Shown: piece after piece, positions 10,082 to 36,427 of the stretch
How positions within the stretch are numbered: position 1 is the first letter of the stretch
How the letters are laid out: every line of letters starts with the position of its first letter
From: an uncultured Clostridia bacterium
Lineage (GTDB): Bacteria > Bacillota > Clostridia > Oscillospirales > Ruminococcaceae
Assembly: GCA_947627045.1 (NCBI GenBank)
Contig: CANQUM010000017.1
Span: 1-36,427 of the forward strand
DNA length: 36,427 bases
Reading direction: 5' to 3'
Translations under genes and position numbers: made by a program
The notes under the pieces: model-generated
What the model was told of the DNA's origin: nothing
Seen by the model: only the letters and a program-made list of their open reading frames with translations
The model's database searches: none

Positions 10082-13000
10082 ATAACATCTGCGGCCTCCG
10101 GATTTGTGACTGGCTTTGCTGTGCTCCCTTTACAATTTCGAGAGCCTGCAAGGCTGATTTGTCGGGCTGATACTTATTCAGAAGCCCCTCCATTTTTTCA
10201 GCGTCGATATGCTCGACCGACGTCAAGGAGCACATTCTCTCTGCGTTTTTGTCATTGTCAGACCATGCATACATTCCGTTTGTGAGCAGCTCGCGGCGCT
10301 CGCCGCGCTCATTTGTAACTGCGTAGTGCATGAATTCCTCGCCGTTGTCGCGGCGGTAAAGAGAGATGATTTTTATATCAGGAGCCGCTTGGGTATCTGC
10401 GTCTTTTTTTCCAATCGAATTGTTATCAATATTTAAAATAACGTTCAGCTCATTGACCCTTGATATTTTTTCTTTAAGCTCCTGTTCAAAGGGGAAAGGC
10501 TTTTCGACGTCCTTCTTTGCGACTTCAAACTGCTTTTCAGTATTTTCAAGGTCGTTTTCAGCATCCTTGAGCATTTCCGCAAAGCGTTCAACGCCATTGT
10601 CAATGCGAGTGATATTACCGTGAATATCATTTCCAAGAGGCACATAGCAGCTTGTTTTGCCTTGGAGCCTGACGACATACTCACGCCGAACAGTGTCAAA
10701 GAACAAATTTGTTTTAAATCCTCGGTAAGACCCGAGCGGAACAGAGTCGGGGCTGTTCATTTTCTTGCAGGCGTCGATAATTGCTTTGCCGGCTTCAGCT
10801 TTTTCGGAATAAAAAACACCTTTAACCTCCATGCCGACAAAGCGGTCGTCGGTAGGCTTCGGGTGTTCCTGCGCCGTTTTTGTATCTGCCTTTAACCCCT
10901 CTATACGGGAGTGCAGGGAGGCAATACGCTGCGGATAATATTTGATTATTTTGTCCTCCAATTTGTACTTTTCGGATAAAAAATTTGACTTAAGCATACT
11001 AAGTCTCTGAATCTGAATATCCAAATCCATTTTATCCTTTATGTAAGGATTTCCGGTCGCAAGCATTTTTATTTCCGCATAGGATAACGCTGTTTCGTCT
11101 ATATCCTCTGCTGAACGCACCGGAGATTTGCTCGTCATAATCTGACTTACAAATTTTTGTTTTCCCTCAATAAGTTGATAGAGGTAACTATCAAATGTCT
11201 GCTCCGTTACATAACGATAAATATGAACGTCTTTATTTTCATTGCCCTGCCGGATTATTCTTCCTGAGCGCTGCTCAAGATCACTTGGTCTCCACGGACA
11301 ATCAAGATCATGCAGCGCGATGAGTTTGTCCTGAACATTGGTTCCCGCGCCCATCTTTTGTGTTGAGCCAAGAAGAACCCTGACCTCGCCCTTGCGAACC
11401 TTTCGAAATAGCTCCTGTTTCTGTGCTTCGGTGTTTGCTTCGTGTATGAAGCGGATCTCATTTTTCGGAACGCCTCGTTCAACGAGCTTTTTTCTAATAT
11501 CGTTGTACACTGAAAATTCAGTGTCGGACTTTGGAGTTGACAAGTCGCAAAAAATAAGCTGTGTTAATTTTTTATCGGTATTGTCCTGCCATATTTTGAA
11601 TACATTCTCAACACAGGCATTTAACTTGCTTCCTTCAAAATCCGGAAGAGCGGGATTAATAAGCCGTTGATCAAGAGCAAGCTTGCGCCCGTCATTGGTT
11701 ATTTTTAACATATTATCTACGCTTGAATCCACCATTCCGGCACGGATTTTTTCAGCTCGGTCTCCGAGTTCCTTTACCATGTCCTGCTGAAATTCTGATG
11801 GTTTAACAGCAATGTTGTGGTAATGGGCTTCAGGAACCGGCAATTTAAGCATATCGGCAGTCTGAATATCGGCAACCTCCTTGAAGGTTGACATCAGTTC
11901 AGGAAGATTATAAAATCTTGCAAATCTTGTTTTGGATCTGTATCCCGTACCCTCGGGGGTCAATTCTACGGCGGCTACATTTTCTCCAAAGGTGGAAGCC
12001 CAAGCGTCGAAATGCTGTAATCCGTTCTTTTCAAGTGCTGCATACTGCAAATATCTCTGAATGGTATATAACTCCACCATAGAGTTGGAGATAGGCGTTC
12101 CGGTCGCAAAGACCGTGCCGCGTCCGCCCGTGATTTCATCAAGGTATCGGCACTTCATAAAGAGGTCGGAGCTTTTTTGCGCCTCGGTCTGAGCGATCCC
12201 GCCCACATTCCTCATCTTCGTATAGAGATAGAGGTTTTTGTAATAGTGGCTCTCGTCAATAAAGAGCCTATCAACGCCAAGCTCCTCAAATGTCACCACA
12301 TCATCCTTACGGCTTTGGTCGTTTAGCTTTTCAAGCTTCTGCTTAATGGATTTTCGGGTTTTCTCAAGCTGTTTGACGGAAAATTTCTCTCCACTGTTGT
12401 ACTTTAAGTCTGCTATTCCTTCGGTCACTTCTTCAAGCTGTTGTTCCAAGATTGCCCTCTGTCTTTCTAATGACATCGGTATTTTTTCAAATTGACTGTG
12501 CCCGATAATTACCGCGTCGTAGTCCCCGGTTGCGATACGTCCGCAAAATCGTTTGCGGTTTTTTGTTTCAAAGTCCTTTTTCGTCGCTACCAAAATATTG
12601 GCGGCTGGGTATAACTGTAAGTATTCTGCCGCCCATTGCTCTGTCAGGTGGTTTGGGACAACAAAGAGCGACTTGTTACACAGTCCGAGCCTTTTGGATT
12701 CCTGTGCCGCCGCTACCATCTCATATGTTTTTCCTGCGCCAACGACGTGTGCGAGCAATGTGTTTCCGCCATACAGAATATGAGCCACCGCGTTTTTCTG
12801 ATGTTCCCGCAGTTCAATTTCGGGATTCATACCGCTAAATATAATGTGACTGCCGTCATACTCACGAGGTCTTAAATTGTTGAATTTTTCGTTATACAAT
12901 TTTGTCAGATTTTCTCGGCGAGTTGGATCCGCCCATATCCAGTCCTGAAAGCCTTGCTTAATTAGCTCCTGCTTTGACTGAGCGATTAAGGTTTCTTTTT

Positions 13001-16000: not shown

Positions 16001-17684
16001 TGCGGCGCCGCTCGGCAGCTTCCGCTCTCCGTTCTTCCTGCTTTTGAAGCCATTCCGGGTAGCAGGCTTTTTCTTTTGGGGAAAGGTATCGGTCGAGCCT
16101 GATCAACTCGGCAATGCGCTTCTCTACCTGTTGCCAGGACAAATCAATATGAGGCTTATCGTCCCCAAAGCCTCTTGAAATACGGATACCCTTGCCGTCG
16201 TGCTGTTCGTCAATGCCGACTCCGACAATGGCAGGGTAAACACCGCCCCAACCGTACTCTTTTTTCAGAAAATCGGCGTTCTCCTTGGCGGACAGGCTTT
16301 TCTCAAGCTGCTCGTAGATACGCATTTTCCCTTCCGAAACGCCGCTTCCACGAGTCAGAACTTCGTCTATGATTTCCTGAGAAAAAGTAAAGGCAGAGGG
16401 CTTTCGTTCCTCTGCCTGACTGTTCATCATTAAGGTTAGCTGCCCGTCCATAGACGGTAAGGGCTTTATTTTGTCCTCGTTGTTACGGTCATACCACTCT
16501 AAGCGAATATAACCTCCGTTTTGACTATCTCCTTCGCCCGATTGCGAATGTTGTTCATTTTGCGCACCCACGCCATCATGTCGTTCGCCTTCAGTTCCTC
16601 CGTGACCCCCTCGTCCTTCGCCATCTGTCTGACGAGAGTTTCCTCCATCTCCTCCGCGCGCCGCTGGATCTCCGCCAGATGCGGAATCAATTCGCAGCTC
16701 GTGAGCAGATTGCAGTAGAGTCCCTTGCGGTGCTCCTTCAAATATTGTTTTCTCATTCGCGCGTACATTCTCAGCTCCACCTCCGGCTGCTCCTGCTCCG
16801 GAAGCTTCAGATCGGGTATTAGATAATCTCCCTGTCTCGTGTAGGTTATTTCTGCCATTTGTAAAACTCCTTTCCGTTTTTTCTCTATTGATATTATAAT
16901 CCGTTTTTACATCGTACACAAGCTTCTGCTCTTTACGATTAAGTAAATTTACCTCTTTTGCTATTTCAGAAAGACACATTGCAGCAATAGAGCTTGCCGC
17001 AACGCCCAAAACGTTAAAAACCTTTTCATCACTGTAATTGACAATGTTTTGAAAATCTTCATTGCTAAAATACATATCCGCGTCAATGCCGAGTCTTTCC
17101 ATTGCCATATAAGCGACGCTGTTTGTAACAAGCTCCCTGCTGACTGCGGTTATAGCGCTTTCGTCTAAATCCTCAAGAAAGGTATTATCAACAATCGGCA
17201 ACAATTCATTAAGATAATTTGAAATATTGTTTTCAACCGCCTTTTCCGAAACTGATATAATAGCGTTTGCAAAGCTGCTCTTATCTTTTAGCTCTCCAAA
17301 TGCGCTTTCAAGCATATTGATAACTTCAGTTTCATATTCCGGCTTCATTTTCCAAATAGGAACCGGTCTTGCGGCATTGCCGGCGCGTGTGTCCGAAATG
17401 TCGAAGTAATGGATTAATCGCTGATTTTTATGTCCTTCGTCCTCGAACACGGCAATACCTTTAGTTCCACGCTTTACCCATCTGCCAAAGCTGATGTTCC
17501 AGCGTTCAATAGGAAGAACCGCCGTTGCGTCAGGTCGTTGGGCATAAAGTAAAAGCTGTTCGTCAAAACGCAACTTATAGTTACGGCAAGCTGTTTTTAA
17601 AAAGCTTTTCCATTCATCAGGGTGTGCCGCTTTCTTAACGGCGTCATTATACAAATCAATTATTAGGTCATATTTTCTCGCCAT
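10080..17684 (-). CDS. Giant DNA methylase / SNF2 helicase fusion of the ICE
   Basis: About 2534 aa from the ATG at 17684 (MARKYDLIIDLYNDAVKK); the upstream in-frame extension to 17816 is Arg-rich noise that lies over another frame. The N-terminal 270 residues are ArdC-like (KLRFDEQLLLYAQRPDATAV, then KRGTKGIAVFE). A Gly-rich linker (about 276-395) overlaps a nested tnpV gene. Next come the conserved segments of this ICE family (FLKKEYGWGGVYPAIVG, YHLGDSVYI). An N6-adenine methylase has motif I LEPSCGVGNFIG near 971 and a variant motif IV, GNVPFG, near 1035 where NPPF is usual. The SNF2 helicase has AHVVGAGKTYEM near 1645, LFIDESHYYKN near 1807 and LEQRSGRIIRQGN near 2132. A coiled coil ends the protein. 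It probably unwinds or protects transferred DNA. The RBS is unclear: GAGGAG is 20 bases away and better serves an 11-codon overlapping ORF. Confidence 0.92.
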   Translation of the reverse strand: MARKYDLIIDLYNDAVKKAAHPDEWKSFLKTACRNYKLRFDEQLLLYAQRPDATAVLPIERWNISFGRWVKRGTKGIAVFEDEGHKNQRLIHYFDISDTRAGNAARPVPIWKMKPEYETEVINMLESAFGELKDKSSFANAIISVSEKAVENNISNYLNELLPIVDNTFLEDLDESAITAVSRELVTNSVAYMAMERLGIDADMYFSNEDFQNIVNYSDEKVFNVLGVAASSIAAMCLSEIAKEVNLLNRKEQKLVYDVKTDYNINREKTERSFTNGRNNLHETGRLSNTRSEASGAGAAGGGAENVRANEKTIFEGAPQGTLLQSAHELRIDSASGGDPAARGGDGGNSRQTDGEGRGGHGGTEGERHDGVGAQNEQHSQSGEGDSQNGGYIRLEWYDRNNEDKIKPLPSMDGQLTLMMNSQAEERKPSAFTFSQEIIDEVLTRGSGVSEGKMRIYEQLEKSLSAKENADFLKKEYGWGGVYPAIVGVGIDEQHDGKGIRISRGFGDDKPHIDLSWQQVEKRIAELIRLDRYLSPKEKACYPEWLQKQEERRAEAAERRRNREILFTAPPQPETQTDEQEARYEYHLGDSVYIGASEYEILSLDESRVMLYDTQMPLFNKELTREEFDRKVRENPMNDHLKVTDIHAEEERSEDESAPFDINEYDDPDYLEQRQLAQQEAQEQLPRFDSIEFEKLIPHEMRFKEVDLVNDNEIFWVTQEPFTIEQLREFQQAVRDYDGDIKRFYVTPRDLSGYNFEEDLARKVLAVVTPDTILKDDYVRAMREEGLADYLMPENPAETPAEQVVEKIEQAASEQPGEPVQETPSEPLIPNFNNPKSKAQSFDLHPDIPMSERHTFNLKANPVETVGKKERFRRNIMAIQLLKKCQEENRFATPEEQVILSKYVGWGGIPEAFDKNNSAWGTEYLELKTVLTPEEYTAARESTLTAFYTPPEVTTAIYNALSQMDFREGNLLEPSCGVGNFIGMLPQSMENAKIYGVELDPISAGIAQQLYQKSSIAACGFEEVNVPDSFFDGVVGNVPFGDFKVLDKRYDKHNFLIHDYFFAKSLDKLRPGGMMALVTSKGTMDKTNPAVRKYIAQRAELLGAIRLPNNTFKGNAGTEVVSDILFLQKRDRLIDIEPDWVHLDTDKNGIQMNSYFVRHPEMVLGEMKMATGRFGTESTCEPYENADLERQLAEAISNIHGEISDYETDNEIETEDNSIPADPNVRNFSYTVVDDAIYFRENSKMTPVEASPTAKNRIKGMIAIRDCVRELIELQTEDYSDSDIKRAQDKLNTLYDNFTKEYGLINSRANASVFDDDSSYPLLVSLEVINENGELERKADMFSKRTIKPHIPVTEVDTASEALAVSMGEKAAVDMSYMQQLTGKTEQEIYNDLKGVIFLNPLYGDGDSTKSKYLIADEYLSGNVREKLAVAKKSAEIYPEDYTVNVEALERVQPKDLTANEISVRLGATWLPPKIVEQFIYEFLDTPRWAQWNIKLHFSAYTGEWNIEGKSYDQSNVKAYNTYGTSRINAYKIIEETLNLKDVRIFDYIEDYEGKRKAVLNKKETLIAQSKQELIKQGFQDWIWADPTRRENLTKLYNEKFNNLRPREYDGSHIIFSGMNPEIELREHQKNAVAHILYGGNTLLAHVVGAGKTYEMVAAAQESKRLGLCNKSLFVVPNHLTEQWAAEYLQLYPAANILVATKKDFETKNRKRFCGRIATGDYDAVIIGHSQFEKIPMSLERQRAILEQQLEEVTEGIADLKYNSGEKFSVKQLEKTRKSIKQKLEKLNDQSRKDDVVTFEELGVDRLFIDESHYYKNLYLYTKMRNVGGIAQTEAQKSSDLFMKCRYLDEITGGRGTVFATGTPISNSMVELYTIQRYLQYAALEKNGLQHFDAWASTFGENVAAVELTPEGTGYRSKTRFARFYNLPELMSTFKEVADIQTADMLKLPVPEAHYHNIAVKPSEFQQDMVKELGDRAEKIRAGMVDSSVDNMLKITNDGRKLALDQRLINPALPDFEGSKLNACVENVFKIWQDNTDKKLTQLIFCDLSTPKSDTEFSVYNDIRKKLVERGVPKNEIRFIHEANTEAQKQELFRKVRKGEVRVLLGSTQKMGAGTNVQDKLIALHDLDCPWRPSDLEQRSGRIIRQGNENKDVHIYRYVTEQTFDSYLYQLIEGKQKFVSQIMTSKSPVRSAEDIDETALSYAEIKMLATGNPYIKDKMDLDIQIQRLSMLKSNFLSEKYKLEDKIIKYYPQRIASLHSRIEGLKADTKTAQEHPKPTDDRFVGMEVKGVFYSEKAEAGKAIIDACKKMNSPDSVPLGSYRGFKTNLFFDTVRREYVVRLQGKTSCYVPLGNDIHGNITRIDNGVERFAEMLKDAENDLENTEKQFEVAKKDVEKPFPFEQELKEKISRVNELNVILNIDNNSIGKKDADTQAAPDIKIISLYRRDNGEEFMHYAVTNERGERRELLTNGMYAWSDNDKNAERMCSLTSVEHIDAEKMEGLLNKYQPDKSALQALEIVKGAQQSQSQIRRPQML
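16499..16858 (-). CDS. tnpV: TnpV, nested in another frame inside the helicase gene
   Basis: 119 aa, complete: MAEITYTRQGDYLIPDLKLP, then MRKQYLKEHRKGLYCNLL, EGVTEELKANDMMAWVRKMN and NNIRNRAKEIV. These match the TnpV family (transposon-encoded protein of Tn4451/CTn-type elements, function not firmly known). The ATG has a strong RBS of its own, AAAGGAG with 8 bases spacing. It lies entirely within the giant methylase/helicase gene, same strand but a different frame, where the host frame encodes a Gly/Glu/Gln-rich linker. The start, RBS and full-length family match show it is not a chance shadow frame. Confidence 0.85.
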   Translation of the reverse strand: MAEITYTRQGDYLIPDLKLPEQEQPEVELRMYARMRKQYLKEHRKGLYCNLLTSCELIPHLAEIQRRAEEMEETLVRQMAKDEGVTEELKANDMMAWVRKMNNIRNRAKEIVKTEVIFA

Positions 17685-17698
17685 ATTAAAAAATTCAT
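17663..17698 (-). CDS. Possible 11-codon coupling ORF over the helicase start
   Basis: ATG at 17698 encodes MNFLIWRENMT and stops at 17663, past the helicase ATG at 17684. The SD GAGGAG lies 6 bases upstream of this ATG, the ideal distance, whereas the helicase ATG has no SD at a workable distance. It may feed ribosomes to the helicase by overlap coupling, or simply be chance. Confidence 0.3.
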   Translation of the reverse strand: MNFLIWRENMT

Positions 17699-17701
17699 CT
17701 C

Positions 17702-17843
17702 TTTCTCCTCGGAGCTTTATGCTCCTGATTTTGCTTTTGCCGCTCCTGCTCATGAGCCTTTTTCGCGAGCTCGGCAGGCGGATATGTATATTGCGGATCA
17801 ACGCGATCCGGCACACCGTCGGCGTCTGTATCTCTGTAAGCGT
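17702..17843 (-). pseudogene. Out-of-frame tail after the relaxase with a DxDADGVPD motif
   Basis: The frame -1 to the relaxase is open across the relaxase stop and continues to a stop near 17702. It reads ENKVNAYRDTDADGVPDRVD, then PQYTYPPAELAKKAHEQERQ and a basic end. It has no ATG, GTG or TTG near its beginning. The motif closely resembles DIDADGVPNKID in the gene at 5936-7030. It therefore looks like the real C-terminus of an ICE protein (perhaps the relaxase), separated by a one-base frameshift, sequencing error or recoding within the A-rich stretch near 17850-17885. Confidence 0.45.
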
Positions 17844-24146: not shown

Positions 24147-24929
24147 CTATTCTCCCAATATATGTAATTTTGCCAACTCTATCGCTATTTGATATTCGCG
24201 CCCGTATTTGTTATTGCCGTGTGTTTCTTCAACCGCAGCCGCGAATTCGTCTATTGTGCCGGTAAAGCAACCGCACGTTACACCAATTCCGCCGTCTGCT
24301 GTTTTGTAGAATGTGGTAGCGTCGTTACGGCTGCCTATACTATCAGCAACAAATATATCTTGTTTACTTTTGATGTGAGCTCTTCCGCAAACATGGGCGT
24401 TGCCATCAATGCAGGCTTTGCCGCTAACACGGGCATTGCCATCAATATAAGCACTCCCATTAATATAGGCGCTTTCATGAACAGTGGCGTTGCCGCCAAT
24501 ACGGGCGTCGCCATCAACACGAGCGTTGCCGTCAACATAGGCATTGTCGCGAACATGGGCATTACCACCAACATTAGCGTTGCCAGCAACAAAAGCCCCG
24601 CCACCAATATAGGCATTGCCATCAACACAAGCACTGTCATCAACACAGGCATTGCCATAAACCCAAGCTCTGTTTTTAACACAGGCGTTGCCACGGACGG
24701 TAGCACGACCGAAGGCACGGGCATTATCGCCCACCCACGCACAGCCGAGGTGGGATAGATTATCTTCCGTTTCAATGTAGCCGCCCAACGTGCCGACCGT
24801 AACACCGTCCGTAACTATTTTTTCTGTACCGATTCGAAAATCAATTAATGCCCGAATACGGTGCAACACCCTGCCATTAATCCAAATAGTATCATCAGGA
24901 ATTAATTCGTATTTTTTTGTTTCTGCCAT
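24147..24929 (-). CDS. Hexapeptide left-handed beta-helix protein
   Basis: 260 aa from the ATG at 24929; a TTG lies 6 bases upstream. The middle holds about 21 consecutive six-residue units of the form G-N-A-x-V-x (GNACVD, GNAYIG, GNARVD, GNATVH, GNARVS), which fold as a left-handed parallel beta-helix. An N-terminal cap (VTVGTLGGYIETEDNLSHLG) and a C-terminal domain (FYKTADGGIGVTCGCFTGTI, then EETHGNNKYGREYQIAIELA) are the conserved flanks of this family in gut phages and ICEs. The enzymatic or structural role is not established, and there are no catalytic acyltransferase residues I can point to. The upstream box 24959-24980 is shared with parA. Confidence 0.8.
   Translation of the reverse strand: MAETKKYELIPDDTIWINGRVLHRIRALIDFRIGTEKIVTDGVTVGTLGGYIETEDNLSHLGCAWVGDNARAFGRATVRGNACVKNRAWVYGNACVDDSACVDGNAYIGGGAFVAGNANVGGNAHVRDNAYVDGNARVDGDARIGGNATVHESAYINGSAYIDGNARVSGKACIDGNAHVCGRAHIKSKQDIFVADSIGSRNDATTFYKTADGGIGVTCGCFTGTIDEFAAAVEETHGNNKYGREYQIAIELAKLHILGE
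24371..24750 (-). repeat. 18-bp periodic coding repeats (about 21 hexapeptide units)
   Basis: Degenerate 18-bp units encode the beta-helix rungs. The variable positions are mostly the second and sixth residues of each unit. The periodicity also opens long meaningless frames on the opposite strand. Confidence 0.75.
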
Positions 24930-24958
24930 TGTCAATCCTGCTCCCTTCGTTTTGCCTT

Positions 24959-26014: not shown

Positions 26015-26905
26015 TTATCTATCCCGCTTAATTTTCCGGCTCTTTTCTTTCGCCTTTGCTACAAGCAAAACTCCGGCAGAGAAAAGAACAACAGCAGCCG
26101 CGAGGCATACGCCTGTTGCTATTTCACCGGTTTTAATGTTCCCCTTACTTCCATTGGTATTTATGTCGTTTCCGTTGCCGTTCGTGTCTATACCGGAACC
26201 GGTTCCGCTTGTAATCGCGGTTGCCGTTTCCGGCTCGGTTTCGATATTCATAACGAACTTTGGACTTGCGTCAAGCTCATAAAGCCATTGTGAGCCGTCC
26301 TCGGAAGTGTAGGGCAGAGACACAAGAAAATCGCTCGGCTTTTCCTTAACGATTTCCGGAGCAGATACGCAGGAAACGATATACACCCCGCGCTTATCCG
26401 TACTGAGCGTTATAGACGTTTTCCCGTCTGCGCCTGTCGCCGGAAGTCTCATGAGCATAAGCTTCGACTTGTCAATGCTCTTTATATCTATGTCCGATTT
26501 ATCGATCGTAAAGTCTTCGTTTATTCTGTATATTTCAAACTCTACGCCTTCGATGGGATTGTACTCTGCGTCCACAGCCGCTATATTCAAAACAACGTCG
26601 CGGTTGTCAGAGATAAGGTGAGATGTTGTGGTGGCGTCCGCATCTGCCGGATAAACCACATCGCTTGCCTCCGTTTGGAAGACAGGATCTGTTGCCGGAT
26701 TTGTAGACGGATCCGTTACGAAATCTGTGTTTGTTTCAAAATCGCTATCCTCATCTGTTGACAGCTGTGTTGCTTCAACGATTATCGTTTCTGCCTCGCT
26801 CTCCGAAATTTCATTTTCATCCTCCGCAGACGCTGCTATGGAAGAAAACAAGCAAACGGTAAACGCAAGAGCAAAAAACAGAATTGCTATTCGTTTTTTA
26901 AGCAT
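26015..26905 (-). CDS. Small SpaA-like surface protein, probable pilus base or minor subunit
   Basis: 296 aa. Signal peptide KRIAILFFALAFTVCLF with a cut likely after SIAASAE. An acidic T/S/D-rich stretch follows, then one SpaA/Cna-B-like domain (LNIAAVDAEYNPIEGVEFEI near residue 108, closing around VYIVSCVSAPEI). The C-terminus has a Gly/Asn-rich linker, the sorting-like motif NIKTG, a hydrophobic helix (GVCLAAAVVLFSAGVLLVA) and a basic tail. NIKTG is a degenerate LPxTG site, so it may be a poor or special sortase substrate, as pilus base proteins can be. The SD GAAGGAGG lies in the sortase end; it is the last gene of the pilus operon. Confidence 0.8.
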   Translation of the reverse strand: MLKKRIAILFFALAFTVCLFSSIAASAEDENEISESEAETIIVEATQLSTDEDSDFETNTDFVTDPSTNPATDPVFQTEASDVVYPADADATTTSHLISDNRDVVLNIAAVDAEYNPIEGVEFEIYRINEDFTIDKSDIDIKSIDKSKLMLMRLPATGADGKTSITLSTDKRGVYIVSCVSAPEIVKEKPSDFLVSLPYTSEDGSQWLYELDASPKFVMNIETEPETATAITSGTGSGIDTNGNGNDINTNGSKGNIKTGEIATGVCLAAAVVLFSAGVLLVAKAKEKSRKIKRDR

Positions 26906-26908
26906 ATA

Positions 26909-27562
26909 TTAACCTCCTTCATTTAAAATTCTTTCTCCGCGTACAAGCAGACGGCGGGCGTTGAGTCCGCCGTCGCTTACGCAGGTTACAAGCGTTACAT
27001 AATCCTTTTCCGGGATGATCTCGGTATATTTTGTATCGGATGGCAGGCATTTGACAATTCTATCCACTTTATAGGTCAGCCTTCTGTTCTGCACGTTAAT
27101 TGTGAATTTATCGCCCTTAACAAGCTCGCTTAATCTGTCGAACATCTCATAGGATAGCCCCGTATGCCCGACAAGCACCGCATGAGTGCTTTTACCGCCG
27201 ACGGGGAGAGAGGTGTTTTTCATATGCCCAACTCCCTTGGCGAGTACGCTGTCGCTTGTGCCGTGGTAAATTGGAAGCTCTATATTTACCTTTGGCACGG
27301 AAATATACCCTATCATGCCCTCGTCGCCGAAGGACAGCGCGTCGTAATAGTTGACGTCTGTACCCTCGCCGTTCGAGATCAATCTGTTGTATTCGTCCGC
27401 CTTGGCAAAGTCGCCGCTTGAATCTCCGTCTATACCGGCAATGTAGTCTGTAATAATATGACTAAAATTATTTTGGTATATTAGCTGTATTACAAGCGGA
27501 GATACAGCGACCGCCGCTCCTATGATTATGCAGACAAATCCAATTATTCGCCCTTTGCGCAT
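26909..27562 (-). CDS. Class C-like sortase (pilus assembly)
   Basis: 217 aa. N-terminal membrane segment (IIGFVCIIIGAAVAVSPLVI). The catalytic core is intact: His133 in LVGHTG, Cys194 in VTLVTCVSDGG and Arg204 in NARRLLVRGER. The TLVTC and RLLVRGERI pattern is that of pilin-polymerising class C sortases, which link pilin subunits through lysine. It differs from typical class C in lacking a C-terminal membrane helix and a DPF/W lid motif. The start overlaps the pilin 3' end by 19 bases, so expression is coupled to the pilin. Confidence 0.9.
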   Translation of the reverse strand: MRKGRIIGFVCIIIGAAVAVSPLVIQLIYQNNFSHIITDYIAGIDGDSSGDFAKADEYNRLISNGEGTDVNYYDALSFGDEGMIGYISVPKVNIELPIYHGTSDSVLAKGVGHMKNTSLPVGGKSTHAVLVGHTGLSYEMFDRLSELVKGDKFTINVQNRRLTYKVDRIVKCLPSDTKYTEIIPEKDYVTLVTCVSDGGLNARRLLVRGERILNEGG

Positions 27563-29487
27563 TTTCTCTTTTTGCTCTTAATGAACAGAACGGCTATGCC
27601 TACGCATACGACGCCAATGCCCGACGCAACTACAAGCAGCCATGAGAAATTACCGCCTGTGTGCGGATAATTTACCTCTTCTGTATTAACGGTTGTAACA
27701 TTGATATCCTTCTTGTAATTATGCGAGGTGCTGTTGATTGTAATCTCAAAGGGCTTTTTAAGCAGCTGGTAGCCCTTTGCTGTCTTTATTTCGGCAACAT
27801 AGTATGTAGTTTCGCCCTTATTGGAAGGATTATCTGCTTCACCGTAGATCAGTCCGCGAATATTTACCATTCCGTCTGCACCGGAAACAACAATTGCATT
27901 TGCCTTACCGGAAAGATTTTTATCGTCGGCATAATAGATACCATCCTTCAACTCGAATTTGATTGGGTTGATATTCTGCTGCGCGTCGCTGAGCGTTCTA
28001 TACACGCTGAACTCTACTCCTGCGAGAGTGTCGCCATTTACATCCACCTTTTTCCACGCATAACCTCCGGTATGAACCTCAGGTGTTCTTGACTTTATGT
28101 TATATGCACTGTCTGTTTGTATGTCGTTTGTGTAGTCAAGCTCCGCAGTATTCGGGTTATCTCCGCCGATTATTGCCTTTTCATTAAGAACGGTCGTAAA
28201 TATAGTCTTGAGCTCGTTAAAGTCCTCAAAGGCTTTAAAATTGGTTACTGATACTGTGATTATATTGTTGTTCTTGCTGTCGATCTTCGAGTGGTCAACT
28301 GAATAATTCGCAGCGCTTATTGTTGTTTCACTGCCGTCAGCCTTTACTCCGATAAGCTCCACAGACTTATATGTGCAGCCCTCGGAAAGAGTGTCCGTGA
28401 TAACGTACTTTGACATTTTTCCGATCAAGGACGGAACAGAGGTCGTTACCTTCCAATAAACCTCCTTGTTTATATCCTGCGTTACATCCTGATGCCAGCT
28501 TGTCTTATCCGTCGATACTTCCTTATCAATCGTTACATTTTCATTGGGAACCTTGATCTTGTTGTCCTCAACGACTTCACCGTCAGCTTTGTCGTGTATA
28601 TCCGCGCTGTTGTTTACATCGCCGTGAGTATATGTAACTGTTCCGTCATCGTTGATTGTAAATCCGTAATATACTGTGCTGTCTACAATATAGGATTTGT
28701 CATCTGCGGAGATCTCTCTGAAACGGTAATCAGTGTGCGTCGGCAGATGAGTTACAGTGAATTCTCCTGTGCCTGCCGATGTGTATGTGCCGCCAACCGG
28801 TACCCAGCTTACTTTCTTATCCTTAGTTATATTCTTTCTTTCCAGTGTGAAGTGGAAGCCTTCGAGCGGATCGTCTGAATTTAAGTCGTATTTGTGCAGA
28901 GTTACGTTTGCATACTTCGTCTGGTTTTTCGGCTGAACGGTTATATCGTACATCCACGCGGTTTTGTCCGCTGTTGTGGTCGGTACCGAGATAACAAACG
29001 GAGCCGTCTGCTGCCTTACCTGAGCGGGGGCAAAGGTTTCTTTAACGTAATAAACGCCCAAGGCAAGATTTGTAAATGTGATTTTTCCCTCTGAGGTTGT
29101 ATAGCCTGAAGAGTTCCATGTGTTGCTGCCAATATATGCAGCTTCATTTTTAGCTATATCGGCGGCCTTAGGAAGATCCTCGGCTGAGTTGTAATTGAAA
29201 AACTCGGTCAGATCCTTGATCTTGTAGAGTGTAAACTCGACTCCCTCTATCGGCTTTGCGCCTGCGGGAAGGCTGCTGGTGTATGTACCGTCGCCCGGAG
29301 TTGTCGCGTTTTCATAGGCTTCGTCCTCCATCTCGTATTTATAGAGAGTGAGGGAGCCCGTCTTTGTTTCGTCGATAAGGTTCTTGCTAACGCCATCGGC
29401 CGCAAACGCTGTGGTTCCGACTCCGGCAAATACTGAGAATGTCATTAACATTGCGATTAAAAAGCTGAATAATCTTTTTGTTTTCAT
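27544..29487 (-). CDS. Major pilin portion (SpaH/EbpB-like) with its own RBS
   Basis: 647 aa from the internal ATG at 29487, preceded by AGGAAAGG (about 9-10 bases). The signal peptide KRLFSFLIAMLMTFSVFAG ends in TTAFA, a good cleavage site. Pilin domains follow: KTGSLTLYKYEMED and IEGVEFTLYKI (first), YANVTLHKYDLN (second), VTIDKEVSTDKTSWHQDV with WKVTTSVPSLIGKMSKYVIT (isopeptide-forming backbone domain), and YAWKKVDVNGDTLAGVEFSV (last). The sorting signal is YPHTGG, a hydrophobic helix and KSKKRKCAKGE. It is the expected substrate of the adjacent sortase. Its frame is continuous with the upstream adhesin. Confidence 0.85.
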   Translation of the reverse strand: MKTKRLFSFLIAMLMTFSVFAGVGTTAFAADGVSKNLIDETKTGSLTLYKYEMEDEAYENATTPGDGTYTSSLPAGAKPIEGVEFTLYKIKDLTEFFNYNSAEDLPKAADIAKNEAAYIGSNTWNSSGYTTSEGKITFTNLALGVYYVKETFAPAQVRQQTAPFVISVPTTTADKTAWMYDITVQPKNQTKYANVTLHKYDLNSDDPLEGFHFTLERKNITKDKKVSWVPVGGTYTSAGTGEFTVTHLPTHTDYRFREISADDKSYIVDSTVYYGFTINDDGTVTYTHGDVNNSADIHDKADGEVVEDNKIKVPNENVTIDKEVSTDKTSWHQDVTQDINKEVYWKVTTSVPSLIGKMSKYVITDTLSEGCTYKSVELIGVKADGSETTISAANYSVDHSKIDSKNNNIITVSVTNFKAFEDFNELKTIFTTVLNEKAIIGGDNPNTAELDYTNDIQTDSAYNIKSRTPEVHTGGYAWKKVDVNGDTLAGVEFSVYRTLSDAQQNINPIKFELKDGIYYADDKNLSGKANAIVVSGADGMVNIRGLIYGEADNPSNKGETTYYVAEIKTAKGYQLLKKPFEITINSTSHNYKKDINVTTVNTEEVNYPHTGGNFSWLLVVASGIGVVCVGIAVLFIKSKKRKCAKGE

Positions 29488-32400
29488 TTTAAATTTTCCT
29501 TTCCTCTTAAAAATAAAAATGGTGAGTGGAATGAGGATCAACGCCATTCCAACAGAAATAAAAATAGTTTTGTCAAAGCCTCCGGCGATCGGGAAATCTG
29601 ACGTCGGAGTATTGTACATTTCCTTGCTGAGCTCCGGGCTGTCCAAAATTATCTCGACTTCCTCCTTGAGAAGCTGATAGCCCTGAGCCGAAACAGTCTC
29701 GGATAAATAATATGTGCCGTATTTCAGATCGGCTATTACGATTTTTCCCTCGGCGTCCGTCAAAAGATCCGTCGAGCCGTTCTCATCGGGAACATACTCG
29801 TTATTTTCGCCCCGGGAAAAGGTAAGAATATTATGCTCGCTGTCGGTGATATTCATTACAACGCCCGCGAGGGGAAGCTTAGTATCGAGAGCCTTCTTCC
29901 AGACAGTGATTTTCCCCTTCCGGCGGTTTATCACTCGCGGCAGCTCGGTATCATCTTCCGACAAGTCTAAACGCAGGCTCACTGTATCGGTTATCTCTTC
30001 ATAGCCCTCGTCTGTCGGCTTGTAAAGCTTTACATTACCTTCGGTATCTATTACCGCTTTGATTGCATATCCGAGCGGCTGATAGCCGTCGAGAGGCGTT
30101 GTTTCGCTGATATAGTAAACGGTCTCGTTTTTCGTGCTGTATCTAATCTTTTCTGCGGTGAGCAAACCGTCTGAGCCTGTTATCAGCTCGCCGATTTCTT
30201 CGCCGTAAAAATCCTTTGCGGGGGTCTTGCAGTCCTCGTCGGTATAGAGAGTAAATCCAACTCCTTCAAGGTACTTTATATCGTCGCCCTTGCCGTCGTC
30301 GGTCTTAACAAACATGAGATCTATCATTGTCGGGGAGTTAGCGATTCTGAGTTTGGTTGTTTCTCCTGTGCTGATTTCAAACGTTTCTCCGTTTGTTATG
30401 TCTACCTTGTATCCGTCGGGTGCTGACTTTTCTTTCAGTACATATTCTCCTGCCGGAAGTCCGTAAACCGTAAGAGTACCCGGATCGCCTGCCGGAGCAA
30501 CTCCCGCAAAGAAGTATGGACGCAGATCCGTTTTGTTGCTATTTACCGCCTCGTCAGTATCTACATATCCTGCATCATCGCCGGTATATTGATAAGCGCC
30601 CATAATCGGGTTAGACTGGCAAACAAATGCGTTTTTCATCAGCACCTCTTTGCCGTTTTGCACTGCGTAAAGATTGAAAAGCAAGCTGCTGCCGCTTATC
30701 GCTTCGCCGGTATAACTGTCAAATTTTTCAACGTGTAAGTCGCCCTGATTTGAAAAATTAAGAGTTTGATGACTGTCGTCGATATTCTTATGAACTGCGA
30801 TTGTATTTCCGCGATATTTGAGCTCCTCGAATACTACAACTGCCTTACCCGCATATGGGATCGCATTTATTGTGTACTTTATTTTAATGCTCTGGGTGTT
30901 TGCTGTAGCTTCAAAAGTAATATCCGCAGACTTGGAACCGTTCGCGATTTCTACGGAGTTGCCATCACTTGCAGCATTCAAAAGCTCTATCGGAGCTTCA
31001 TCATCCTTACCGACCACGCTGCCGGTTATGGTGTAGCTTTGCCCTGCAATTAGCCCTGTCATGGTGACGGTATCCTCAAGGGTATATTCGGCTGCGGGGA
31101 CTTTTTTCTCTCTACGATCCGTCACCTCTGTCGTGACCGTGGGGTTAAGAATACTTACAGTCTGTTCCGTATCCTCCAAATCCTTGTGTTCGGCTATTAC
31201 CTTGCCGTTATATTTGAGCGTTTCAAAAACAACTAAGTCTTGTCCTGCGTACTTTGAAGCGTCAAAGTCAAAGGCCATATTAAACCCCACATCTCCCTTT
31301 CGAGCGGTGAAGGTTTCCTCACCTGTTGATATTACATTTCCGCTTGATTTTTCTACGAGCTGACCCTCTACGGTATACTCCTGTCCTGAAATAAGTCCGG
31401 TAAGCTGCACATTGTCGATTATCGACGAGTTCTCTAACGCATACGCATAATGTGTTTTTGTCAAAGAGTCGGTCGCGGTAGTCTTTATGCTCGGATTGAA
31501 AACGCTTACAGTCTGTTCCGTATCCTCCAAATCCTTGTGTTCGGATATTACCTTGCCGTTATATTTGAGTGTTTCAAAAGCAACTAAGTCTTGTCCTGCG
31601 TACTTTGAAGCGTCAAAGTCAAAGGTCATATTGAGGCCTGCTTCTTCTTTTCGAGCGGTGAAGGTTTCCTCACCTGTCGATATTACATTTCCGCTTGATT
31701 TTTCTACGAGCTGGCCCTCTACTGTATACTCCTGTCCTGAAACAAGTCCGGTAAGCTGCACGTTGTCGATTATCGACGAGTTCTCTAACGCATACGCATA
31801 ATGTGTTTTTGTCAAAGAGTCGGTCGCGGTAGTCTTTACACTCGGGTTAAGAATACTTACGGTCTGTTCCGTATCCTCCAAATTCTTGTGTTCGGATATT
31901 ACCTTGCCGTTATATTTGAGCGTTTCAAAAACAACTAAGTCTTGCCCTGCGTACTTTGAAGCGTCAAAGTCAAAGGCCATATTAAACCCCACATCTCCCT
32001 TTCGAGCGGTGAAGGTTTCCTCACCTGTCGATATTACATTTCCGTTCGATTTTTCTACGAGCTGACCTTCTACGGTATACTCCTGTCCTGAAATAAGTCC
32101 GGTAAGCTGTACATTGTCGATTATCGACAAGCTCTCTAACGCATAAGCATAATGCGTTCTTGTCAAAGAGTCGGTCGCGGTAGTCTTTACACTCGGCGAA
32201 ACAAATTCAACCTGTTGCCTTTGGTCGTCCTTGTCCTTGTGTGTTGCAACAACTACATCGTTGCATATAAGCTCCTCATAAACCGTTATCTTTTTACCCT
32301 TGAGCTCGGAGGAATCGACGGTAATTTCAGTCTCAACTGTTCCGCTGTCGCTATTGGGAGTAAAGCTTTTCGTTGCAGGAGTTCCTATTTCCTTGCCGGT

Positions 32401-35400
32401 CTCACTGTCAGCAACGGTAGTTTTTAATGTGTAGTTCACATTGGCGATAACATTTGAATACTCAACGCTATCCAGTATTGTGGTCTTGCTATTCGCATAT
32501 CCCACTTGAAGAGTCGTCTCCTTGTCTATAGCAGAAGTAACAAGATTAGGCTTTATAAAGGTCACGGTTTGCCCCGCGTCTTCAATATTTTTGTGCTCGA
32601 CCATGGTTTCGTTGTTATATTTCAGAGTTTCAAATACAACTACGCTCTTTCCCGACAAAGCGGAAGCGTCCAGTGTAAACGTCACCGTGACTTTTCCATT
32701 TTCATCGGTCGGAGTAAAGGTTTTAACCGCCGTTATTTTTTTGCCGTTTATCAGCAGCTCCTTACCCGTCGCCTTATCCATCAAAACGCCCTCAATAGTG
32801 TATTCTACCTTAGGCGTTACACCCTCGTATGTTACCGTATCTGTAATCTGAGCCTCATCAATCGCAAACGCTTGGTGAGTATTCGTCAGTGCGCTGAGAG
32901 CCGTTGTGCCAATTTTCGAATAGGGATTTATTATTCTCGGCAGAGTTAAAATCTCACCGTCAAAAACAAGCGTCGCCTTACCGGTTATCTCTTCATAGCC
33001 GCCCTCGTCTGTCGGCTTGTAAAGCTTCACCTTGCCCTTGGTATCTATTACCGCTTTGATTGCGTATTCGAGCGGCTGATATTCGTCGAGAGGCGTCGTT
33101 TCGCGCAAGTAATAAACGGTTTCCTTTGCCGTGCTGTATCTCACATTTTCCATTCTGAGCAAGCCGTCTGAGCCTGTTAGCTGCTCGCCGATCTCTTTAC
33201 CGTAAAAATCCTTTGCCGGGGTCTTGCAGCTCTCGTCGGTATATAGAGTGAACCCAACTCCCTCAAGGAACATGGTATATGCTCCAATTCCGTCGTCGGT
33301 TTTTACAAGCATCAGATCTATCAGTGTCGGGGAGTTAGCTATTTCAAGCTCGGTTGTTTCTCCGGCGCTGATTTCAAACGTCTCGCCGTCTGTTATATCT
33401 ATCTTATACCCGATGGGTGCCGACTTCTCTTTTAACACATATTTTCCTGCCGGAAGTCCATGAATCGTAAGAGTACCCGGATCGCCTGCCGGAGCAACTC
33501 CCGCAAAATAGTACGGGTGCAGATCCGTTTTGTTGCTATTTACCGCCTCGTCAGTATCTACATATCCTGCATCATCGCCGGTATATTGATAAGCGCCCAT
33601 AATCGGGTTAGACTGGCAAACAAATGCGTTTTTCATCAGCACCTCTTTGCCGCCTTGCACGGCGTAAAGGTTAAAAATCAAGCTGCTGCCGCTTATCCCT
33701 TCGCCGGTAAAGCCGTCGAGTTTTTCAATGTACAGGTTGCCCTGATTTGAAAAATTAAGAGTTTGATGCGTGTCGTTGATATTCTTATGAATTGCGATTG
33801 TATTTCCGCGATATTTGAGCTCCTCGAATACTACAACCGCCTTACCCGCATACGGGATTGCATCTATTGTGTACTTTATTTTAATGCTCTGGGTGTTTGC
33901 CGTAGCCTTAAACGTAACGTCCGCAGACTTCATGTCGCCCGCGATTTCTACGGAGCTGCCATCGCTTGCAGCATTCAAAAGCTCTATCGGAGCTTCATCA
34001 TCCTTACCGACCACGCTGCCGGTTATGGTGTAGCTTTGCCCTGCAATTAGCCCTGTCATGGTGACGGTATCCTCAAGGGTATATTCGGCGCTTGGAGCTT
34101 TTTTACCGGTGAACTCCGTTACTTCTGTTGTGACCGTCGGACTTAGCAAATTAACTGTCTGATTTGCGTCGTTTACACTCTTGTGCTCGGCAACAATTGC
34201 GCCGTTGTGCCTCAAGGTTTCAAAGACCACAAAATCCTTGCCGGTGTATCCCTCAGCGCTGAAGGTGAAGACCATATTTTGAGTTGCGCTTGTGCTTTTC
34301 GCCATAAACGTCAGCCCCTTTGTCGCCAATACGGTACTCGGATTGCTCTTCAGCACAACCTGTCCGGTCAGAGTGTAGTTCTCATTCGCAATCAGGTTTT
34401 CCATTTTTACGCTATCGTTTATCGAAAGCTCGCTCACTGCATAGGCGGAATGTGTGTTTGTAGCGGAATTTGTCGCTGTTGTCGTTATGCTCGGAGAAAT
34501 GAATGTGACGGTCTGATCCGTATCATTCACATCATCGTGAGCGGCTATGATGAAAATCTCGCCATATTCATACAGATCCTCACACACTACAACGGATTTC
34601 CCGCTCAAATCGCCGGTTTTGGACATATCAATATCGAACACTAACGTCATATTCTCTGTTTCGGAGGTTGCCGTAAAGACAAAATCTCCGGTATATTTAT
34701 TCGCCGAATTTATGATCTTAGTGAGCTTGCCGTTAACATTGCGGTAAACGTCAACACCAAACGGCCGTCCAATGATTTCCTTGCTTTCCTTGTCCATTAA
34801 GTAGGGATAGAGATCATATTCAAATCCGGGAATAAGCCCTTTAATCGTCAAGTTCTCTGTTATTCTTTTTTCGGTCGCATACATAAACTTTCTGTTGTTG
34901 CTTCCGTAAGCATAGGCTTTTGAATCCAACTCCGGCAAGCTGTAGGTCACCGTTTGACTTAAGTCGTTAAGATCCTCATGAATAGAGCCCTGTATGACAT
35001 TGCCGTCAGCGTCAGTTATCGGCGCTCCTCCGACTTTAGTAATGCGCTGGAACACAACAAACTTATACGAATAAGTACCGGCCTTGTATGGAATTGTAAA
35101 GTAGAACGCCTCGGTGGTTAAAGTCCCGCTTCCGGAGGCTGTTGCTTTGAAGCTTGTTTTGTATGTGCTTACTGTATTTGTAAGCGGACGAGAGAAGCTC
35201 GTCGCAAGCTGCACGGGTGTAGCATTGCTTCCGTTTACATACATTATTTGAGTGTGCAGCTCATAATCCGCATTCGCGGTAAGTCCGGAATATGTTACAG
35301 TGTCTTTTATCTTGCCGTATTTGTCAGAAATATCGAAGTGAGCATTTTGCGATTCGTAAGACGCATCCTGCGCCGAGGTTATAATATTAATATCGTTTTT

Positions 35401-36427
35401 CACGTACTTGACGCTTTGAACCAAGCTATTAACATCCTCGTGCTTTGCAATCTCCTTGCCGTTTTGCTTGACATAAGCAAGCGCCACCATGAGCTTATCC
35501 GGATATGGCGTACTGTCAAAGCTGTAATCAAGCGTTAAGGAACCGTTTTGCTGTGTTACCGTGAATTGCTTTGTCGCGGTCGCAACAACAGTCTGCGGAT
35601 TGTCCTTGAGCACAAGCTTGCCCTCAAGGGTATATGTTTCGCCTACGTTCAATCCCCAATATCTTATGGTATCGGTAGCACTTGAGTTTTTGCTTACAAA
35701 CGCCGTGTGGCTTTTTGTGCCGTTATCGCGAAGCGTTGTGCTGAGAGAGATTGAAGAGTTCGGTATTTCGGGGGCGTTGTAGGTGTCAACTGTTGGTAAC
35801 TGCTGATCGCCGCTCGTTATGGGAATGAGCCTTACGGTTTTGTCAATTATATAGCCGTCGGGGGCGGTTGTTTCTTGAATTAGGATTGTGCCGAGAGGCA
35901 ATATCGGGTTAGGATCGCCCTCGTTGTAATAAAAATTATCGCCGGAAATTTTATAGTTATTACTATAAAACACATATCCATTCTCGTTAGTCTTAAACAC
36001 CCAACTTCTTGTGTACTTGACATCCTTTTTAACGCCATTCTCGGTTACTGTTACGTCCGGGTTATCTTTGCCGTCGGATAAATCAGCGTCCGCGTGAATG
36101 TCAGAAGTATCGAAGAATGAATCAAAATACTGAACCGTAAACTCAGCTCCGGGCAAGCCCTTACCGTTTTTGTCGATTTTCTTTAAGAGAACATTGACAG
36201 GGTCGTTCTCAGGTTCGTCCGGCAGACAATATTTATCGTCCGCCGACGGGTCATCGGTCACCGGACAATAGCCGGGATATCCGCCGTACATCTTCTGTTT
36301 GCCGTCGCTATCGTAAACGGGTTCGATTGGATATACGTTTTTGTCAAGCGCATACCCTTGAGGGGCTGTGAGCTCTTTAATGTAATATGTGCCCTTTGGT
36401 ATGGGAATTGAGTCGCCATACGCTTTC
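27544..36427 (-). CDS. Giant adhesin fused in frame to major pilin, 5' end off window
   Basis: One open frame from the window edge to 27544, at least 2960 aa. The visible N-terminus is inside a SpaA-type domain (GTYYIKELTAPQGYALDKNV). About eleven VaFE/T-Q ester units follow, each with an N-terminal TTATDS-like Thr segment, a VVFETLKYNG-like core and a closing EHKDLEDTEQTV; they are interrupted by two blocks of two SpaA domains. The adhesin part ends with FPIAGG, a membrane helix and KRKGK, a cell-wall sorting signal. There is no stop: four codons later the frame enters the pilin's Met and signal peptide. T-Q ester units self-crosslink and make stiff stalks. It is probably the tip or shaft adhesin of the pilus. 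A one-base change at the junction would restore a stop, so two separate genes remain possible. Confidence 0.85.
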   Translation of the reverse strand, partial: KAYGDSIPIPKGTYYIKELTAPQGYALDKNVYPIEPVYDSDGKQKMYGGYPGYCPVTDDPSADDKYCLPDEPENDPVNVLLKKIDKNGKGLPGAEFTVQYFDSFFDTSDIHADADLSDGKDNPDVTVTENGVKKDVKYTRSWVFKTNENGYVFYSNNYKISGDNFYYNEGDPNPILPLGTILIQETTAPDGYIIDKTVRLIPITSGDQQLPTVDTYNAPEIPNSSISLSTTLRDNGTKSHTAFVSKNSSATDTIRYWGLNVGETYTLEGKLVLKDNPQTVVATATKQFTVTQQNGSLTLDYSFDSTPYPDKLMVALAYVKQNGKEIAKHEDVNSLVQSVKYVKNDINIITSAQDASYESQNAHFDISDKYGKIKDTVTYSGLTANADYELHTQIMYVNGSNATPVQLATSFSRPLTNTVSTYKTSFKATASGSGTLTTEAFYFTIPYKAGTYSYKFVVFQRITKVGGAPITDADGNVIQGSIHEDLNDLSQTVTYSLPELDSKAYAYGSNNRKFMYATEKRITENLTIKGLIPGFEYDLYPYLMDKESKEIIGRPFGVDVYRNVNGKLTKIINSANKYTGDFVFTATSETENMTLVFDIDMSKTGDLSGKSVVVCEDLYEYGEIFIIAAHDDVNDTDQTVTFISPSITTTATNSATNTHSAYAVSELSINDSVKMENLIANENYTLTGQVVLKSNPSTVLATKGLTFMAKSTSATQNMVFTFSAEGYTGKDFVVFETLRHNGAIVAEHKSVNDANQTVNLLSPTVTTEVTEFTGKKAPSAEYTLEDTVTMTGLIAGQSYTITGSVVGKDDEAPIELLNAASDGSSVEIAGDMKSADVTFKATANTQSIKIKYTIDAIPYAGKAVVVFEELKYRGNTIAIHKNINDTHQTLNFSNQGNLYIEKLDGFTGEGISGSSLIFNLYAVQGGKEVLMKNAFVCQSNPIMGAYQYTGDDAGYVDTDEAVNSNKTDLHPYYFAGVAPAGDPGTLTIHGLPAGKYVLKEKSAPIGYKIDITDGETFEISAGETTELEIANSPTLIDLMLVKTDDGIGAYTMFLEGVGFTLYTDESCKTPAKDFYGKEIGEQLTGSDGLLRMENVRYSTAKETVYYLRETTPLDEYQPLEYAIKAVIDTKGKVKLYKPTDEGGYEEITGKATLVFDGEILTLPRIINPYSKIGTTALSALTNTHQAFAIDEAQITDTVTYEGVTPKVEYTIEGVLMDKATGKELLINGKKITAVKTFTPTDENGKVTVTFTLDASALSGKSVVVFETLKYNNETMVEHKNIEDAGQTVTFIKPNLVTSAIDKETTLQVGYANSKTTILDSVEYSNVIANVNYTLKTTVADSETGKEIGTPATKSFTPNSDSGTVETEITVDSSELKGKKITVYEELICNDVVVATHKDKDDQRQQVEFVSPSVKTTATDSLTRTHYAYALESLSIIDNVQLTGLISGQEYTVEGQLVEKSNGNVISTGEETFTARKGDVGFNMAFDFDASKYAGQDLVVFETLKYNGKVISEHKNLEDTEQTVSILNPSVKTTATDSLTKTHYAYALENSSIIDNVQLTGLVSGQEYTVEGQLVEKSSGNVISTGEETFTARKEEAGLNMTFDFDASKYAGQDLVAFETLKYNGKVISEHKDLEDTEQTVSVFNPSIKTTATDSLTKTHYAYALENSSIIDNVQLTGLISGQEYTVEGQLVEKSSGNVISTGEETFTARKGDVGFNMAFDFDASKYAGQDLVVFETLKYNGKVIAEHKDLEDTEQTVSILNPTVTTEVTDRREKKVPAAEYTLEDTVTMTGLIAGQSYTITGSVVGKDDEAPIELLNAASDGNSVEIANGSKSADITFEATANTQSIKIKYTINAIPYAGKAVVVFEELKYRGNTIAVHKNIDDSHQTLNFSNQGDLHVEKFDSYTGEAISGSSLLFNLYAVQNGKEVLMKNAFVCQSNPIMGAYQYTGDDAGYVDTDEAVNSNKTDLRPYFFAGVAPAGDPGTLTVYGLPAGEYVLKEKSAPDGYKVDITNGETFEISTGETTKLRIANSPTMIDLMFVKTDDGKGDDIKYLEGVGFTLYTDEDCKTPAKDFYGEEIGELITGSDGLLTAEKIRYSTKNETVYYISETTPLDGYQPLGYAIKAVIDTEGNVKLYKPTDEGYEEITDTVSLRLDLSEDDTELPRVINRRKGKITVWKKALDTKLPLAGVVMNITDSEHNILTFSRGENNEYVPDENGSTDLLTDAEGKIVIADLKYGTYYLSETVSAQGYQLLKEEVEIILDSPELSKEMYNTPTSDFPIAGGFDKTIFISVGMALILIPLTIFIFKRKGKFKMKTKRLFSFLIAMLMTFSVFAGVGTTAFAADGVSKNLIDETKTGSLTLYKYEMEDEAYENATTPGDGTYTSSLPAGAKPIEGVEFTLYKIKDLTEFFNYNSAEDLPKAADIAKNEAAYIGSNTWNSSGYTTSEGKITFTNLALGVYYVKETFAPAQVRQQTAPFVISVPTTTADKTAWMYDITVQPKNQTKYANVTLHKYDLNSDDPLEGFHFTLERKNITKDKKVSWVPVGGTYTSAGTGEFTVTHLPTHTDYRFREISADDKSYIVDSTVYYGFTINDDGTVTYTHGDVNNSADIHDKADGEVVEDNKIKVPNENVTIDKEVSTDKTSWHQDVTQDINKEVYWKVTTSVPSLIGKMSKYVITDTLSEGCTYKSVELIGVKADGSETTISAANYSVDHSKIDSKNNNIITVSVTNFKAFEDFNELKTIFTTVLNEKAIIGGDNPNTAELDYTNDIQTDSAYNIKSRTPEVHTGGYAWKKVDVNGDTLAGVEFSVYRTLSDAQQNINPIKFELKDGIYYADDKNLSGKANAIVVSGADGMVNIRGLIYGEADNPSNKGETTYYVAEIKTAKGYQLLKKPFEITINSTSHNYKKDINVTTVNTEEVNYPHTGGNFSWLLVVASGIGVVCVGIAVLFIKSKKRKCAKGE
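29985..31140 (-). repeat. 1.15-kb segmental duplication inside adhesin, copy A
   Basis: Encodes one VaFE unit plus two SpaA domains (LEDTVTMTGLIAGQSYTITG through VNSNKTDLRPYFFAGVAPAG to LYKPTDEG). It matches about 32976-34140 at an offset of close to 3.0 kb, with long exactly identical stretches, for example around 30541-30650. Confidence 0.8.
31141..32193 (-). repeat. Three tandem 351-bp VaFE repeats
   Basis: Units 31141-31491, 31492-31842 and 31843-32193, each exactly 117 codons and near-identical at DNA level. The marker GTCTGTTCCGT recurs at 31160, 31511 and 31862. Each unit encodes KTTATDSLT to EQTVS. Confidence 0.9.
32976..34140 (-). repeat. 1.15-kb segmental duplication inside adhesin, copy B
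   Basis: Second copy of the block at 29985-31140 with the same domain order (one VaFE unit then two SpaA domains). Recombination between copies would delete about 3 kb in frame, removing VaFE units 6-10. Confidence 0.8.

Follow-up and report, generated by a model that had tools for sequence, protein, structure and literature searches.

The 36,427-nt contig CANQUM010000017.1 from an uncultured Clostridia bacterium of the Ruminococcaceae (the whole stretch is called the window below) carries on its minus strand a sortase-pilus operon, in which the genes of a large adhesin and of the shaft (major) pilin share a single open reading frame (ORF). The established part of our analysis is that this fused frame exists in two elements, that both of its halves are under purifying selection and that the pilin ATG lies in a favoured start context. 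The interpretation that we somewhat favour is that two genes became one in-frame gene, whose run-through product would enter the membrane as a hairpin precursor and be cut twice, with internal initiation adding further pilin.

One frame for two surface proteins

The frame extends on the minus strand from 27544 to 36426, i.e. up to the contig end (2960 codons; 2915 aa from the first ATG at 36291), hence the N-terminus of the adhesin, with its own N-terminal signal, lies off the contig. Across the join (29440-29520) it reads FPIAGG-FDK-TIFISVGMALILIPLTIFIF-KRKGKFK-MKTKRLFSFLIAMLMTFSVFAGVGTTAFA, with no stop anywhere between. In comparisons with Pfam and NCBIfam, the ORF showed 11 VaFE/TQ ester-bond stretches as well as SpaA domains, and the part past the junction matched a SpaH/EbpB major pilin. 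Only three hydrophobic segments occur in the 2915-aa ORF (starts at about residues 2238, 2273 and 2880); in order, they are the helix that follows FPIAGG, the signal peptide of the pilin and the helix behind the pilin sorting motif YPHTG. By these features, one open frame holds two exported parts separated by a predicted internal signal peptide. An earlier note on this DNA had proposed that the adhesin, ending in FPIAGG, a helix and KRKGKFK, runs into the pilin without a stop, and that a sorting signal and a signal peptide lie within the chain; the minus-strand frame indeed reads through the join, and the hydrophobic segments together with the domain matches place both signals in it.

The same join in a second genome

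The arrangement recurs in locus L034 of an independent metagenome-assembled genome (uncultured Clostridia bacterium isolate Lapin-003-2), so the fusion is more than a single-sequence accident. L034 was the sole relative confirmed among 21 stretches that matched a pattern in a scan of named genomes, which sees close relatives only, as it was built on exact 8-residue patterns. Its DNA is 82% identical to the window over 3367 alignment columns, and the proteins of the neighbouring genes are 89% (sortase), 83% (minor pilin) and 85% (ParA) identical. The L034 join is also free of stops, FPIAGG...FILRKKGNNK-MKTKRLFSF. From the last helix codon to the ATG, it departs from the window in 9 of 24 bases and in 6 of 8 codons, with the same length and no stop; the basic residues counted through MKTKR number 8 in the window and 7 in L034, i.e. 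the charge of the linker is nearly kept while its sequence has changed.

This comparison bears on the proposal that the fused frame stems from an error of sequencing or assembly, or represents one setting of an on/off switch that works by slippage on a T run, which the earlier note had called an equally direct explanation. The T run, and the TAA that one more T would bring into frame, are as described there, and the adhesin of a more distant locus, L076, ends in frame with that TAA; the adhesins of L076 and of two further distant loci, L077 and L078, all end in the two frames other than that of the fusion. G-tract slippage switches are, moreover, known for sortase pili of Bifidobacterium breve (PMC9187656). 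However, the same frame is present in L034, an independent assembly with 6 of 8 differing codons and no T run at that place, which makes an error confined to the window or a slippage switch very unlikely. A run of three Ts is not a usual slippage tract, and no homopolymer or tandem repeat at the junction is kept between the two sequences (3 T in the window, none in L034). We therefore rejected this explanation on the strength of the nearest relative and regard it as hardly credible.

The genomes of the window and of L034 probably belong to different families of one order: G957, from the family of the L034 genome, shares the tested 400-base stretch with G736, which is labelled f24, while the window is labelled f1. 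Different host families, if true, would fit transfer of the element. The L034 genome also has a second region (L080:2851-15316), in which sorting-signal proteins of 2510, 709 and 755 aa are encoded by separate genes.

Selection and the internal start

Comparison of the window with L034 revealed purifying selection in the pilin (dN/dS 0.094, dS 0.65) and in the 300 adhesin codons that directly precede the linker (dN/dS 0.143, dS 0.60); both halves look like working proteins under constraint. The sortase has a dN/dS of 0.077, and the upstream adhesin is more diverged (dN/dS 0.166, dS 1.1 over 570 aligned codons).

The internal ribosome-binding site that the earlier note had pointed out, AGGAAAGG, is present ahead of the pilin ATG. 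A GG at -13 to -11 from this ATG occurs in all five loci compared (window, L034, L076, L077 and L078), with duplex energies against the 16S tail of -5.9 (window), -3.5 (L034), -5.6, -8.9 and -6.0. When local folding energy was subtracted from the Shine-Dalgarno (SD) energy, a combined score that is ad hoc and was devised in this analysis, the pilin ATG ranked first among 37 in-frame ATGs in the window and first among 15 in L034; the two first ranks are not independent, since the sequences are related. The DNA of the first 24 pilin codons (29416-29487) is identical in the window and L034, starting right at the ATG, in an aligned region that differs by about 18%. Among these codons 21 are able to vary and show 0 synonymous changes, whereas the compared region as a whole has 228 of 803 (p = 0.00075 for a block at this very place).

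Several observations weigh against the interpretation that we favour. A simple simulation (substitutions only, no indels) gave a probability of about 0.65 that the linker stays open by chance at the divergence of the two sequences; selection in favour of the fusion is accordingly not demonstrated, and we rejected the openness of the linker as proof of it. By SD alone, 6 of 36 other in-frame ATGs in the window are at least as strong as that of the pilin, and in L034 the site is weak (-3.5), with 1 of 16 other in-frame ATGs as strong. A synonymous-free run of this kind anywhere in the region has p = 0.12. The starts of all three control genes lack such a block (4 of 19 codons changed in the sortase, 7 of 21 in the minor pilin, 7 of 23 in ParA), so that its value as proof of internal initiation is weakened by our own controls; it gives mild support for a used pilin start and could reflect a translation-start or RNA element, or else local exchange. 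Finally, we know of two fused copies only, and each lies at the end of a contig in a draft assembly.

Part of this evidence would suit a neutral fusion, in which nearly all pilin would come from the internal start, the run-through chain being tolerated as a by-product that is degraded or poorly processed. Besides the chance openness of the linker and the low number of fused copies, the linker protein evolves fast (dN 0.38 over 8 codons), and in neither copy does any in-frame start score better than that of the pilin. On the other hand, the basic charge of the linker is nearly kept, and the fused chain should be made in adhesin-like amounts, since most ribosomes generally run on where there is no stop. 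On balance we consider a neutral fusion rather unlikely, but to be taken seriously.

Proposed processing of the fused chain

If the precursor is functional, ribosomes finishing the adhesin would run on into the pilin. The sorting helix of the adhesin would stop transfer, leaving the basic linker KRKGKFK-MKTKR inside, and the pilin signal peptide would re-start export. According to the positive-inside rule, a basic stretch between two hydrophobic segments should remain cytoplasmic, and the joined chain is accordingly expected to adopt a hairpin that places its two large parts on the outside. Cleavage by signal peptidase I after AFA would then release the pilin, and the class C sortase would cut the adhesin at FPIA/G and join it to lysine 187 of a pilin, which we take to be the linking lysine. 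The leftover helix, linker and signal peptide would go to membrane proteases. The steps in the cell and the role of the adhesin as tip subunit are inferred from the known logic of the parts: a sorting signal combines a motif of the LPXTG type with a hydrophobic stretch and a basic tail, and the lysine of the pilin motif is the nucleophile in pilus cross-linking (both PMC11389406).

A strict 1:1 ratio of adhesin to pilin, as put forward in the earlier note, is unlikely, because one shaft requires many pilins and the internal start appears to be usable. The extra pilin needs another source, for which the internal start is the natural candidate; most shaft pilin would thus come from separate initiation at the internal SD and ATG. 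A working hairpin would deliver the tip along with the first subunit of the shaft, a matter of relevance to the initiation of pilus assembly. It could even be a device for pilus nucleation: every round of translation would place one tip adhesin next to one shaft pilin at the sortase, in the form of the hairpin, the first tip-to-shaft bond would join two halves of one chain, and internal initiation would afterwards provide the remaining shaft. This extension is speculative and we think it improbable; if true, it would represent translational coupling of overlapping pilus genes taken to its limit.

Two other fates of the chain can be envisaged. It could stay uncut at the internal signal peptide, so that adhesin and pilin remain one giant surface protein, as the single continuous frame would allow. 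However, the signal-peptide-like segment with AFA is unchanged at the protein level in L034, the pilins of L076, L077 and L078 start in a signal-peptide-like manner as separate genes, and the N-terminus of an uncut pilin would presumably stay held in the membrane, unable to join a shaft; this fate is very unlikely. Alternatively, ribosomes could slip near the junction, meet an out-of-frame stop and re-start at the pilin ATG, giving two proteins after all. Both other frames do stop beside the ATG, in the window (TAA at -4, TGA at +1) as well as in L034 (-7 and +1). But TTTAAAA of the window is out of phase for a usual slippery site, and it is absent from L034, hence we give slippage and re-start next to no credence. 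The reading that we favour remains the hairpin precursor cut at both signals.

Origin of the fusion

In contrast to L034, the junctions of the distant relatives L076 (G915), L077 (G780) and L078 (G791) have stops; the stop-less join looked for in relatives was thus found in the close one and not in these three, and the fusion is not general to this pilus type. They show the same order of adhesin, pilin and sortase, with adhesin and pilin as two separate genes spaced by a 1-nt gap (L076), a 4-nt ATGA overlap (L077) or an 8-nt overlap (L078). Their pilins are 48, 48 and 49% identical to that of the window, their adhesins carry the sorting motif FPNAG or YPNAG, and in L078 genes resembling those of the minor pilin and ParA follow too, as judged from reading the sequence. 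A pilin tree (13 rows, midpoint root, several open forks) groups the fused pair as one clade (100/100) nested in a five-member clade (100/100). As three distant operons of the same clade keep two close or overlapping genes, the fusion probably arose from a tightly coupled pair, and in the simplest history such a pair probably lost its frame difference once. The direction from separate to fused rests on the separate state being common, the tree by itself having no direction. The fused operons seem to catch a step of gene evolution, in which close or overlapping genes become one gene and the inner start is retained.

Among the fetched loci with a junction passing our motif rules, there are 31 different junctions in which a sorting signal is followed by a signal peptide; 2 are fused and 29 separate. 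Four of the 29 read as pilin-to-sortase pairs (L036 and L096, one of two rows each; L047; L084), and after their removal 25 of 27 pairs of neighbouring surface proteins are encoded by separate genes. A gap of -4 between adjacent surface-protein genes was seen in three loci (L044, L058 and L068), so the four-nucleotide overlap is recurrent in these operons.

No third fused copy was found in phage records (DNA search, no match), in plasmid records (7, all below 60% identity and none covering 80% of the junction query) or in viral contigs (no relative confirmed). Scans of the family, order, genus and class of the window (396, 394, 15 and 391 genomes) and scans around the genome of L034 (300, 6, 6 and 398 genomes, in overlapping sets) revealed the fusion in the genomes of the window and L034 only; mostly the top 3 to 6 first-look candidates per genome were scored, and some weak long-ORF matches were not fetched, for example in G004 (2834 aa), G781 (1772 aa, with a TAA inside) and G868 (3023 aa). 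In the 391-genome class scan nine other matching genomes have pilin ORFs of 480-643 aa, and in the 398-genome scan every match outside G761 lies in an ORF of 524-925 aa. A scan of the fetched loci for hairpins in ORFs of at least 500 residues returned the junctions of the window and L034 together with five rows (L042, L043, L044, L095 and L106), each of which lies on the strand opposite to the pilin match of its locus and which we read as antisense frames. The long ORF of L016 (2345 aa) has no hairpin within its fetched part. Our term searches of open-licence papers brought up no title or abstract that describes a fused pilus precursor of this kind.

The pilus operon and its element

Apart from the join, the operon (Table 1) is made of ordinary parts, and by these parts it is a sortase pilus operon. 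The major pilin scores above the cut-offs for NF033902, TIGR04226 and PF16569 (GramPos_pilinBB domain present) and matches 17 sequences in the PDB at E <= 1e-5, the best being 7woi, 'Spa2'; P186, K187 and N188 of the pilin motif are invariant in all five pilins. It is thus a major pilin of a known family with CnaB/isopeptide domains and a pilin-motif lysine, accompanied by a dedicated class C sortase. One usual feature, a separate precursor for each subunit, is missing in the window and in L034, where adhesin and pilin lie in one frame; this is a difference of gene structure that leaves the other sortase-pilus features unaffected. The overlap of the pilin and sortase frames (27544-27562 in the window) is 19 nt long in the window and L034 and 16 nt long in L076 and L078; in L077 the two frames abut. 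The operon accordingly looks translationally coupled.

Table 1. Features of the fused frame and of the pilus operon in the window
Feature	Position	Strand	Remarks
Adhesin half, N-terminus cut by contig end	29488..36426	-	VaFE/TQ ester-bond repeats and SpaA (Cna-B-like) domains
Internal sorting motif FPIAGG	29578..29595	-	residues 2233-2238
First membrane helix of the proposed hairpin, TIFISVGMALILIPLTIFIF	29509..29568	-	hydropathy
Stop-less basic linker KRKGKFK	29488..29508	-	RKKGNNK in L034
Internal Shine-Dalgarno-like site AGGAAAGG	29498..29505	-	10 nt ahead of pilin ATG; duplex energy -5.9
Pilin ATG, probable internal start	29485..29487	-	residue 2269
Internal signal peptide MKTKRLFSFLIAMLMTFSVFAGVGTTAFA	29401..29487	-	cleavage after AFA inferred from sequence features
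Shaft (major) pilin, SpaH/EbpB family	27544..29487	-	motif TVQPKN, its lysine being pilin residue 187
Pilin sorting motif YPHTG	27655-27669	-	
Class C (pilin) sortase	26909..27562	-	NF033745, 187.6 bits (cut-off 160)
Minor pilin	26015..26905	-	signal-peptide-like start, C-terminal helix (NIKTGE)

The window also encodes a MobA/VirD2 relaxase, NikA/MobC, a TraG/VirD4-type coupling protein, a TraG P-loop (VirB4-like) ATPase, TrbL/VirB6, PrgI, SSB, ParB and a ParA-type ATPase, on the basis of which we take it to be part of a conjugative element. Adjoining the relaxase, a 2578-aa protein (10080-17816) has ResIII/SNF2-type helicase domains and an Eco57I methylase match just under the cut-off; a 921-aa frame beside the pilus operon of L076 may be related to it, from reading its sequence. 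Another protein (24147-24935) has weak bactofilin and hexapeptide-repeat matches, both under curated cut-offs.

Comparison with known systems

The most relevant rival system is the G-tract switch of B. breve, in which, too, the reading frame decides whether a sortase pilus is made. It does not fit: there, the homopolymer splits the signal peptide from the LPXTG motif within one pilin (PMC9187656), whereas the window has two entire genes joined, without a tract of this kind. In the tip pilins of Actinomyces oris, a sorting signal with FLIAG decides placement at the tip (PMC11389406); a sorting signal would likewise mark the tip subunit here, and FPIAG resembles FLIAG in letters. However, FLIAG adjoins LPXTG, whereas FPIAG is the sorting motif itself, and the likeness may be due to chance. 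The GeneTack survey (PMC3711429) reports that adjacent or frame-shifted genes can have fused homologues; its main text is without the words 'pilin' and 'signal peptide'.

Sortase pili of the SpaA/Ebp type share with the window the SpaH/EbpB major pilin, the PKN lysine motif, isopeptide-type domains, the class C sortase, a VaFE/SpaA adhesin and the sorting signals, and differ in that here the adhesin and the shaft pilin share one frame. For the principle of a polyprotein, the nearest precedent known to us is fbcH of Bradyrhizobium, which reportedly encodes a cytochrome b/c1 polyprotein cut at an internal signal sequence. There too, two exported or membrane proteins are said to originate from one chain, which is divided at an internal signal peptide, but in a respiratory complex of a Gram-negative bacterium, with no sortase cut and no polymer. 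An adhesin and a shaft pilin made as one chain and cut at the membrane would be unusual for bacteria. The fused operons amount to a natural experiment on the Gram-positive export and sortase pathway, asking whether it copes with a polyprotein that comprises two substrates and has both a sorting signal and a signal peptide in its interior.

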